Below are positions 5,171 to 17,811 of a DNA stretch of 21,197 nt, in pieces. How positions within the stretch are numbered: the first letter of the stretch is position 1; the number at the start of each line of letters is the position of its first letter. Location of the stretch: positions 1 to 21,197 of the IMG/VR virus record IMGVR_UViG_3300044695_003508. One strand, written 5' to 3'. Under the pieces are notes generated by a model. That model saw nothing but the letters and a program-made list of their open reading frames with translations. It made no database searches and had not been told where the DNA came from. The position numbers and the translations under genes are program-made. Source of the stretch: a virus.

Positions 5171-5217
5171 TCCAAATCCGGACTGAAATGCACCGAACGG
5201 GATAATTCAGCAGATTG

Positions 5218-5256
5218 CAGCCTGTTTTTCCGCCGATGAAAACAGACCGCAGGCTG
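5218..5256. terminator. Hairpin in the spacer between convergent operons
   Basis: The 112-bp gap between the plus-strand stop (5170) and the minus-strand stop (5283) holds CAGCCTG (5218-5224) pairing with CAGGCTG (5250-5256). Inside it is an alternative stem CTGTTTT/AAAACAG (5222-5228, 5239-5245). The position suits a bidirectional terminator, but neither side has a good terminal U-tract, so strength is doubtful. Confidence 0.35.
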
Positions 5257-5282
5257 ACTAGAACGACCGCTTCGCCTCTTCC

Positions 5283-6116
5283 CTACTCATGCCGAGTTGT
5301 TGCGGGCGCAGTCAATTCTTGCTTGCCAAACAAAAGCACTTCGGGTCCGTCAACGTGGCCCGACAGCCCCTCAAAACCTGCGCGCTTAAACAGGCTTTGA
5401 GCGCCTTCATCGCCCTTGTAAATATCGCCGCGCAAGCGAGCATACAGCGGATAACCTTCGCCATACGTCCGCTCAATGAGATTTGCTATGGCCTCGCGGT
5501 TTTGGGGTTCTGCCGCCGCTATTAGGCGGGCCTTGTCGGCTTGAGTACCGGCATAGTCGCCATAGCGATGCCCGAGGCCATTATATATATCGCGGGACCG
5601 CTGCGGCAGTGTGTAGGTCGTCCCCTCGCCAGCGTAACGACCTGCGACGTTCGGTGCCGGGGTGGTGTAAACTCCGGGGCCTAGTGGGCCACGAACAGAC
5701 GGCGTTAATTCGGTAAGCCCCGCGCGCGGAGAACCGTGCATAAGCGGATCTGAAAATGTGCTGCCGAGAGCGCCTTTCGGAACGCCGGCACCTCCACCGA
5801 GCGTCATCAGGCCCGCAATGTCTGCCGAACGCTGGATTGCCTCGTCGCTCATAGGGTCTGCTTTGCCTTGGTAAACCCTGTTGGCAAAATCAGCAAAGTT
5901 GTATGGCACCTTAGCCAGCTCAGCCGGCCATGACTGCAAGATGGCTTCCTTGATGCCAGCACGGTAATCCTGCGCCCGCCGCTGGTCCGCTTGATACAGG
6001 TCGGACGCCATGCCCCGCAGCGACATGTCAGCATCCTGGCGCTGGTCCGGAAATGCGGCCATCGGCTGGCCAACGCCGCGCATCATGGCTTCGGCTATTT
6101 TATATCGTGCGTCCAT
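5283..6116 (-). CDS. Protein with C-terminal ADP-ribosyltransferase-like (ART) domain
   Basis: A 277-residue protein. The N-terminal 120 residues are helical and resemble no enzyme; a Gly-rich patch (107-119) leads into a C-terminal region with the motif order of ADP-ribosyltransferases of the H-Y-E type: 'LMHGS' (His127), 'GPLGPGVYTTPAPNVAGRYA' (Tyr150, second Tyr161) and a late strand 'GPEVLLFGKQEL' (Glu259). This would transfer ADP-ribose from NAD to a target. I read the family from motifs, not from a database match. The start at 6116 is chosen for the GAGGAAA ribosome site 5-11 bases upstream; a longer start would overlap the DUF3310 gene. It ends the accessory operon. It could be injected with the DNA or made in the host; a remnant domain is also possible. 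Confidence 0.6.
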   Translation of the reverse strand: MDARYKIAEAMMRGVGQPMAAFPDQRQDADMSLRGMASDLYQADQRRAQDYRAGIKEAILQSWPAELAKVPYNFADFANRVYQGKADPMSDEAIQRSADIAGLMTLGGGAGVPKGALGSTFSDPLMHGSPRAGLTELTPSVRGPLGPGVYTTPAPNVAGRYAGEGTTYTLPQRSRDIYNGLGHRYGDYAGTQADKARLIAAAEPQNREAIANLIERTYGEGYPLYARLRGDIYKGDEGAQSLFKRAGFEGLSGHVDGPEVLLFGKQELTAPATTRHE

Positions 6117-6126
6117 GTCGCTTTCC

Positions 6127-6366
6127 TCAGTTATCACGCGGCGCAAGGTGATTGATGGCTCGCCTGATGTGCCATTCGGCCTTCTGTGCCTGTTCCATCG
6201 TGTCGCCCTTCTTGCCAGCGCGGAGAAGGTATTTCAGGGCCGCCGCGATGTTATAAGCCGCAGCCGGGTTGCCGTTTTCGGAGACGGCTGACAGCACGTC
6301 CTCCATTACGTCGATCGCCTGCCATTTGGCATTCTGGTAGTGGTGCGGGTTTATCGTGTCAGTCAT
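6127..6366 (-). CDS. DUF3310 family protein
   Basis: A 79-residue protein with the pattern 'INPHHYQNAKWQAIDVMEDV' followed by 'NIAAALKYLLRAGKKGDTME' and 'AEWHIRRAINHL'. These are the landmarks of DUF3310, a small phage protein family, sometimes loosely labelled nucleotide kinase; no activity is proven and no kinase motif is present here. ATG 6366 lies inside the end of the phosphoesterase gene (8-base overlap) behind GAAGGTGAAG. It is translated with its neighbours as one operon. Such proteins are usually found among early or metabolic phage genes, so its presence on this strand hints that the 5283-7848 operon is not a structural one. Confidence 0.8.
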   Translation of the reverse strand: MTDTINPHHYQNAKWQAIDVMEDVLSAVSENGNPAAAYNIAAALKYLLRAGKKGDTMEQAQKAEWHIRRAINHLAPRDN

Positions 6367-7441
6367 TGCGCTTCACCTTCGTCTTTGCGCCGCGCTCGAA
6401 CCTGCTTCGGAGCCAGTCCAGATAGTCCGCGCCTTCCTCGACAGTCGGTGCGCACCAGACCCGCGAGCGGCAGTTGTCGGGCTTGGCGGGGTCGATGATA
6501 ACCATTGCAGATGGGTGGATCTTGCGCGCCCTGAACTGCCCCTGTTTCGCGTAATCGTCCACAACCTTATAGCCCGATGTCCGCACCAATTGCGTCACGG
6601 TTCCGCATGGCATCACGTCTCCGGCATCTGCTCCCATGTGCAGGTGGCCAGCGACAACGATATGGTCCCGGTGTCCAAATAGCTGCTCCCTCGCCAAGCC
6701 GTGAAGCGGGTTGAATTGCGAATTGCCTTTGAAATTGTGCCTTGCGTTAATCCGCGTCTCGACGCCGTTCGGATGGTCGAGCGCGAGCCTTACGCCGTGC
6801 GGCTGGTCAACGCCTTCCGAGCCTCGCATGATCCAATCGAGGGGATCAGATGGCCCAGACCATGCGTCATGATTCCCCCGCACAAGGAACAGCCAATTGA
6901 CGCCAGCGCCGCGTAGCATCCATTCGGCCAGCCGCCACGCATCTGAGACAGTCGTGCCGCTTTCGGCGTATAGGCGTTGAAGCCTGCCCACCCAGTTATC
7001 GGTGATGTCCCCGATGTTGCCTGCGAACACGTATTCAGGCCGCTTGGCAGCGATGGCCAAATGGTCATGCAGCAGCTTGAAATTGCACCCGGAGTTATCA
7101 ACGTGCGGATCACCGAACACCATCAGCCCCACCGGGCCGGGTGTATTCAATCGGATGCGGATGAGGTGCGTGGCGTCGTCTGCTTCAATGACACGTTCGC
7201 TTTCGGCGATGCGCTTTTTTATCAGGTCGGCCAGTGGCAGTTTGGATGATGGCAGGACCGGAGCGACGAAGGGCCTTGACTGAGACTGAGCCTTGAGCGC
7301 TGTGGCCCGGTTCAAGCGGTTGGCGAATGTCTTGCGCGGGATGCCGAGCGCGTTGGCCGCATGAGTTTGGTTTCCGTTAAACTGCTCAAGGGCGCGAAAA
7401 ATGGCGTCAACGTCAGCGGCTGAAAGTGACGGCGCTCCCAT
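6359..7441 (-). CDS. Fis-type HTH / metallophosphoesterase fusion
   Basis: A 360-residue two-domain protein. Residues 9-46 ('VDAIFRALEQFNGNQTHAAN' then 'ALGIPRKTFANRLNRA') are a Fis/HTH_8-type DNA-binding helix-turn-helix. Residues about 103-330 are a calcineurin-like phosphoesterase with all metal motifs: GDPHVD (Asp111, His113), GNIGDITDNW (Asp145, Asp148), RGNHD (Asn190, His191) and AGHLHMG (His266, His268), plus His235 in 'ARHNFKG'. It should hydrolyse a phosphodiester or phosphomonoester; the substrate cannot be read off. I recall similar fusions in alphaproteobacterial phages. ATG 7441 shares its A with the preceding stop (TAATG). The N-terminal HTH suggests DNA targeting, or descent from a small terminase/regulator-like module. 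Confidence 0.85.
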   Translation of the reverse strand: MGAPSLSAADVDAIFRALEQFNGNQTHAANALGIPRKTFANRLNRATALKAQSQSRPFVAPVLPSSKLPLADLIKKRIAESERVIEADDATHLIRIRLNTPGPVGLMVFGDPHVDNSGCNFKLLHDHLAIAAKRPEYVFAGNIGDITDNWVGRLQRLYAESGTTVSDAWRLAEWMLRGAGVNWLFLVRGNHDAWSGPSDPLDWIMRGSEGVDQPHGVRLALDHPNGVETRINARHNFKGNSQFNPLHGLAREQLFGHRDHIVVAGHLHMGADAGDVMPCGTVTQLVRTSGYKVVDDYAKQGQFRARKIHPSAMVIIDPAKPDNCRSRVWCAPTVEEGADYLDWLRSRFERGAKTKVKRND

Positions 7442-7848
7442 TAGCTGCGCCACCCCATGATGCGGGCGACGATCTGGTCCCATGCCTCCGGAGGTATGCG
7501 GGCTGAACCGCAATACATGCCAGCCGGACCAACCAGGATAGCGCCGCCGATGGGCAGGAACACCAACGCCGCGCTGGCCGAATTGCTGATGGTAGCAGGC
7601 GGGATGCTATCGTATATAGCTGCGGCTCGTTTAGCCTGTTCCGGTGTCAGGTGGACAATGGCAGCGCCGGCCCGGTCGGCCTGTTCTGTCGCTTGCGCGA
7701 GCGTGACGCATTGTGGTGCAGAATTTTGCGCATTTGACCGGCTCGCGACTGTTAGAACGAACAGCAGGACCAGAAACCACACGATAAAATCCATCGGGCG
7801 GGTGACACGGCGCATCGGAGGCGTGCCGGGGATGGCATCCTTGAACAT
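7441..7848 (-). CDS. Exported or membrane-anchored hypothetical protein
   Basis: A 135-residue protein, first gene of the accessory operon. After a basic N-terminus comes a strongly hydrophobic stretch (about 20-36, DFIVWFLVLLFVLTVAS) ending 'SRSNAQNS', which fits either a signal peptide cut after 'SNA' or a membrane anchor. The mature part has two cysteines (about 47 and 112) that could form a disulphide, and a second hydrophobic segment (about 93-111). No family recognised. Start ATG 7848 has AAAGGA 6-11 bases upstream; internal ATGs at codons 12 and 19 would give a more usual signal peptide and are possible. Its export fits an envelope role. Confidence 0.6.
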   Translation of the reverse strand: MFKDAIPGTPPMRRVTRPMDFIVWFLVLLFVLTVASRSNAQNSAPQCVTLAQATEQADRAGAAIVHLTPEQAKRAAAIYDSIPPATISNSASAALVFLPIGGAILVGPAGMYCGSARIPPEAWDQIVARIMGWRS

Positions 7849-17358: not shown

Positions 17359-17811
17359 TCAAGAACTCCTGATAAATCTGGATGCGTCGCGCTGCTCAAC
17401 CGTCAGCGTCATGAATGAGCCGGCCTTGCCCTTGCCCCGTAGGTTCGGGATTAGGATTTGGTCAAAGCCAAGTGACTTGATGATGCGAATAACGCGGGTG
17501 TTTTCCGGATCGTTCTGGGTGACCAGAAGCTGACACCCCAACTCGTCGAAGGCGTATCGGGCAATCTCACGGATAACCATTCGCGAAAGCCAGCTTTCGT
17601 CACGGCTTGCCGCTGAAAACTCGATAGTTCCATGTCGCGGGTTCCAATCGTGGAACGCCACCGCGCCTTTAAGCTTCTGGCCCTTGAACACACCGAAACA
17701 CAGGTTCGGCGTTTTAAGCTGCCGCTCGTCGTCGTAAATCTGATCGGACAGCCAGCCGGCCAAAGCGTGATTGAACTCGCTGTCCGCGCCTTGCGCCCAG
17801 ACAATCTGCAT
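17359..17811 (-). CDS. GNAT-family N-acetyltransferase
   Basis: A 150-residue protein of GNAT plan: beta strands 'LCFGVFKGQKLKGAVAFHDW' and 'HGTIEFSAASRDESW', then a helix 'LSRMVIREIARYAFDELGC', strand 'QLLVTQNDPENTRVIRIIKS' and 'LGFDQILIP', the expected order for an acetyl-CoA-binding acetyltransferase; the Gly-rich acetyl-CoA loop is reduced. Phage tail operons often carry such a gene next to the nozzle and internal protein genes; it may modify a virion or host protein. It starts at ATG 17811, sharing its T with the stop of the nozzle gene (TGATG type), and ends one base before the S74 gene. Confidence 0.75.
   Translation of the reverse strand: MQIVWAQGADSEFNHALAGWLSDQIYDDERQLKTPNLCFGVFKGQKLKGAVAFHDWNPRHGTIEFSAASRDESWLSRMVIREIARYAFDELGCQLLVTQNDPENTRVIRIIKSLGFDQILIPNLRGKGKAGSFMTLTVEQRDASRFIRSS

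Follow-up and report, generated by a model that had tools for sequence, protein, structure and literature searches.

A predicted H-Y-[EDQ] ADP-ribosyltransferase behind a conserved leader in a variable slot at the end of a phage late operon

The last gene on the late strand of a podovirus-like phage raises the question of what its product is and how it could come to act on a host. The window analysed here is the whole 21,197-nt stretch of a 21-kb IMG/VR virus record (IMGVR_UViG_3300044695_003508). A preliminary description had placed an ADP-ribosyltransferase (ART)-like protein at 5283–6116, and these coordinates were correct, with the gene reading on the minus strand from 6116 down to 5283. 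The effector ORF (277 aa, a conserved leader plus a C-terminal ART domain) begins with an ATG at 6116 and ends with a stop at 5283–5285, and the plus strand across this interval was full of stops. A ribosome-binding-like GAGGAAAG (6121–6128, minus strand) lies 4 bases 5' of the ATG, overlapping the stop codon of the preceding gene, and given this spacing, translation of the ORF looks real.

The phage resembles Rhizobium phage RHph_N2, EBPR podovirus 2, and Sulfitobacter phage pCB2047-C in gene order and homologues. The earlier suggestion that the gene ends a phage accessory operon was right about the end but not clearly about the operon: it is the last gene of the late strand, which carries tail, internal virion, fibre, and lysis genes. 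It follows a Fis-type helix-turn-helix plus calcineurin-like phosphoesterase gene (6359–7513, minus strand; family-library matches) and, immediately upstream, a DUF3310 gene (6127–6366, minus strand; PF11753, E = 3.5e-11), whose stop is 10 bases before the effector ATG. The early strand converges on the effector gene from the opposite side, and a strong hairpin just 3' of the gene (5216–5251, minus strand; z = -3.1), common to L001, L003, and L007, lies in between and is the probable end of both the late and early transcription units. The position after the lysis genes suggests late expression. The phosphoesterase belongs to a phage 'DNA repair exonuclease' family (phrog_7339), is 93–97% identical in L001 and L003, and has an unusual N-terminal fusion to the Fis-type helix-turn-helix. 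Elsewhere on the late strand, a GNAT acyltransferase gene (17359–17811, minus strand) has tail genes on one side and virion genes on the other, an arrangement also present in RHph_N2 and pCB2047-C.

Direct searches with the effector protein returned nothing significant from Pfam, PHROGs, NCBIfam, PADLOC, or PDB sequences, with no match at all in PADLOC and NCBIfam. The Pfam ART-PolyVal model (PF18760) did not match the protein at E ≤ 1 and found nothing in its record at E ≤ 10. The route in was through intermediates. A tblastn search of INPHARED phages gave only a weak match, to Octadecabacter phage DB2 gp6, which is 49% identical to the effector over 41 residues around HGS...GPGVYTTP and itself has a sub-threshold match to PF18760 (E = 7.7e-4). 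Searching IMG/VR with the two aligned proteins retrieved L025, L026, and L027, and further scans added L037, L038/L039, and L042. Five distinct homologues were 48–59% identical to the effector over the whole C-terminal domain. A profile built from the window domain, L025, and L026 matched the L027 ART repeats (E = 5e-12) and DB2 gp6 (E = 1.2e-5), and PF18760 matches L027 above the cut-off (E = 3e-20). Against the nearest relative, the L026 domain, PF18760 scored 24.7 bits (E = 4.6e-5) versus a cut-off of 31.2. In L038 the window-type domain directly precedes a second ART-PolyVal domain that passes the threshold (E = 9e-12). Thus the proposed profile search against ART families failed directly, as no curated model matched, and succeeded through this chain. 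Other searches were empty or spurious: tblastn against PLSDB gave nothing, profile searches of 398 genomes gave essentially nothing, and PF18760 found essentially nothing in 299 genomes of one phylum, where no control matched either. Seven Pseudomonas matches from a genome contig scan were GntR/FadR-type regulators with a chance resemblance to LGSTFSDPLMH.

The ART domain spans about aa 121–269 (5310–5756, minus strand), as delimited by the homologue alignment, the AlphaFold2 model, and fold matches. The three landmark residues are where the preliminary description had put them: His127 in MHGS (codon 5736–5738, first catalytic motif, strand 1), Tyr150 in GPGVYTT (5667–5669, second motif, strand 2), and Glu259 in DGPEVLLF (5340–5342, third motif), all on the minus strand. 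The motif pattern, defined post hoc, occurred in 0 of 200,000 residue shuffles. All three residues, plus Asp256, were invariant in the effector and its five phage homologues (6/6), and two L027 ART-PolyVal repeats also kept His127 and Tyr150. The last strand begins with Glu259, three residues after Asp256; the residue after this strand is Gly/Asn in the subfamily and Asp/Glu in the L027 repeats, in a region where the alignment is uncertain.

The predicted fold agrees with this assignment. An AlphaFold2 model from an eight-row alignment (pLDDT 78.5, pTM 0.74) has strands at 126–129, 148–152, 166–169, 250–253, and 259–262, thus at all three motifs, with a helical stretch in between; a model from the leader homologues only (pLDDT 37) was not used. 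Foldseek against viral models (BFVD) gave six matches at E ≤ 1e-3, some of them named PolyVal ADP-ribosyltransferase or ART-PolyVal-like, and the named PolyVal ART matches had a probability of 1.0. The best PDB match was weak (6kyf, E = 0.027, probability 0.87, TM 0.37/0.43); this entry is the anti-CRISPR ART AcrIF11 (PMC12421852). The PDB matches after it were mostly tankyrase and PARP1, all of them weak and none passing 1e-3. The fold matches support an ART fold and no specific subfamily. The ART-like assignment was therefore borne out by the chain to ART-PolyVal, the invariant H-Y-E residues, and the predicted fold, and placement of the C-terminal domain among the H-Y-[EDQ] ARTs, as a putative divergent branch beside Pfam ART-PolyVal, is well supported. 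We did not file it as a strict ART-PolyVal member because it falls short of the curated score and its third residue is apparently different.

A dead or non-enzymatic ART-fold domain serving as a structural or binding module seems improbable to us. Many polyvalent-protein domains have putative roles only, and a weakly similar ART module in L001 carries Arg and Phe for His and Tyr, but six otherwise diverged proteins keep the three catalytic residues and their flanking motifs unchanged.

As accessory cargo, the gene occupies a fixed slot that closes the late operon. In the close relative L007 the flanks are 97.9% and 98.9% identical and the effector gene is absent: about 7 bp separate the DUF3310 gene from the hairpin region, so the cassette without counterpart is 5258–6132 (minus strand). 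L008 likewise lacks the gene, and L001/L002 and L003 have an effector gene at the same place as the window. The end of this operon is generally variable, since L003 also has an extra 123-aa gene between the phosphoesterase and DUF3310 genes (L003:1248-1619) that is absent from the window. In L001, the effector is separated from the shared hairpin by several additional minus-strand genes, one of them helix-turn-helix-like (L001:9017-10466).

The N-terminus had been described as an unrelated stretch of 120 residues. Only its first 30–55 residues or so form a conserved leader, and the remainder is variable. The leader (aa 1–55; 5952–6116, minus strand) was identical to that of L001 over residues 1–55 and to that of L003 over residues 1–30, so that residues 1–30 are identical in all three phages carrying it, and the sequences then diverge. 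Across the linker (aa 56–120; 5757–5951, minus strand), similarity to L001 stops near aa 110; that to L003 has already stopped near aa 30. Codons 1–55 had 11 synonymous and 0 nonsynonymous differences from L001, codons 1–30 had 7 and 0 from L003, and codons 56–110 had 15 and 23 from L001. With synonymous changes only in the leader and a changing body behind it, the leader is held by protein-level selection, as judged from the three distinct sequences in which it is known. No similarity was detected between it and the window's two long virion proteins. An I-A-E in the leader resembles the T4 maturation-cleavage motif L/I-X-E (PMC9026906), and we set it aside, as so short a match is probably chance.

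Behind the leader, the C-terminal modules of L001/L002 and L003 differ from the window ART. The L001 body weakly resembles ART-PolyVal at both ends (RAxxMG[FY]D...YRG and AGFDAV..HEVL), with Arg and Phe where the window ART has His and Tyr, and it is probably a different ART. Counterparts of the L003 body domain occur in Roseobacter phage CRP-902, in phage C72C1, and in a polyvalent protein that also has an InPase domain; the L003 domain has no name in any family library. The L003 protein (L003:1876-3381) is 501 aa long, and its C-terminal domain recurs in portal-proximal and polyvalent phage proteins. The same leader with other C-termini, or no gene at all, in close relatives suggests a plug-in slot for anti-host weapons, holding an H-Y-E ART (window), a probable different ART (L001), an unnamed phage domain (L003), or nothing. 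A more specific proposal, which we advance tentatively and regard as rather doubtful, is that podovirus-like phages with this slot use a capsid-targeting leader unrelated to that of T4, with exchangeable modules or none, and that the ART would be a defence blocker delivered with the DNA.

Swapping of C-terminal modules behind a common N-terminus is also a feature of polymorphic toxins, among which HYD2 ARTs are found (PMC9503650). The gene might on that ground encode a toxin for competition or lysogenic conversion, aimed at other cells and not at infection. We consider this very improbable: neither an immunity gene nor a secretion signal nor a trafficking domain was recognised, the neighbour is a convergent early gene, and the homologues sit in phage head and packaging operons.

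The genomic setting of those homologues bears on delivery. The window ART domain stands behind unrelated N-termini in L025, L026, L037, L038, and L042. It is encoded between TerS and TerL in L026 and between TerL and a P22-like portal in L038/L039; in L025 it precedes the major head gene by two genes, and in L037 it is part of a protein with a cell-wall hydrolase domain. The relatives in L026, L027, L037, and L038 are multidomain, whereas the 277-aa window protein has one recognised domain. The L027 protein (L027:2948-8191) is a polyvalent protein of >1,748 aa in which two ART-PolyVal domains were recognised, along with another ART-like repeat where YRG replaces the His motif. That at least three of the ART homologues are encoded amid head or packaging genes hints at packaging. 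Phage ARTs are often packaged in the virion (PMC9503650), surveys consider that such ARTs are packaged and then injected (PMC5512222, PMC9503650), and a capsid-targeting leader is all that T4 internal proteins have in common (PMC3012670). Homologue context, surveys, and the T4 example together favour a late-made, packaged ART.

Our slightly preferred explanation is an accessory H-Y-[EDQ] mono-ADP-ribosyltransferase on a virion-targeting leader that enters the host with the DNA and modifies a host component. The effector would be made late, at the end of the late operon; the 30–55-residue leader, by analogy, would most likely direct it into the virion; the packaged ART would be ejected together with the phage DNA; and in the host it would use NAD+ to modify a component such as the transcription or defence machinery. 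The accessory status of the gene and the head and packaging context of several homologues are consistent with the earlier proposal of an effector that is injected or made in the host; packaging, catalysis, and a host target are inferred. Weighing against the packaged ART, the window gene lies beside lysis-end genes and not head genes, the leader is unlike the long virion proteins of the window and is represented by three distinct sequences only, and the protein matches no curated ART model and has a best PDB fold match of only E = 0.027.

The main rival, possible rather than probable in our view, is an ordinary moron ART, made in the infected cell and left unpackaged, that would modify a host defence or a superinfecting competitor. 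Its model is AcrIF11, which modifies the Cas8f subunit of type I-F CRISPR. The accessory cassette and its distance from the head genes suit such a moron, as does the best PDB match to AcrIF11, which has similar variable helices between the strands bearing the catalytic residues (PMC12421852). That similarity is weak, however, and the window protein did not match the 6kyf sequence at E ≤ 10. No anti-CRISPR-associated regulator gene was recognised beside the effector, and its position after the lysis genes suggests late expression; an early-acting defence blocker made at that stage would help little if it were not packaged.

Whichever route applies, phage H-Y-[EDQ] ART effectors are a known kind of protein. 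New here are an ART branch that no curated model recognises, a constrained leader with exchanged modules, and a natural empty site. Phage ARTs are common effectors, few with known targets or delivery routes. Where a single locus combines a constrained leader with exchanged modules, the leader would predict further effectors in related genomes and would offer a simple handle, as a reporter fusion would test delivery directly. The natural empty-site relative is a near-isogenic contrast for the effector's benefit.

Compared with ART-PolyVal (PF18760; Iyer et al. 2017, PMC5512222), the window domain shares the His in strand 1, the Tyr in strand 2, the ART fold, and phage origin, and its close relatives occur in multidomain proteins or head/packaging operons. 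It differs in that the protein is below the Pfam cut-off, short, and has one recognised domain and a phage-group-specific leader; its third acid is apparently Glu259, which lies within DGPE and opens the last strand, in contrast to the Asp in strand 5 of the family description (HYD2). AcrIF11 (6kyf; PMC12421852), the best solved-structure match, has the same His/aromatic/acid layout with a variable helical part between, without the long N-terminal leader of the window protein. The T4 internal proteins IPI–III (PMC3012670, PMC9026906) are likewise accessory, with varying bodies and a short conserved N-terminal leader, but theirs is 10–19 residues compared with 30–55 in the window group, whose phage is podovirus-like and whose packaging by the leader is putative. 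The preliminary description had drawn a parallel to T4 Alt, ModA, and ModB, which are phage ARTs acting on the host, Alt being packaged and injected. This parallel stands for function and not for descent: because the T4 enzymes belong to the R-S-E clade (PMC5512222) and the window motifs are H-Y-E, they are functional analogues and not relatives.
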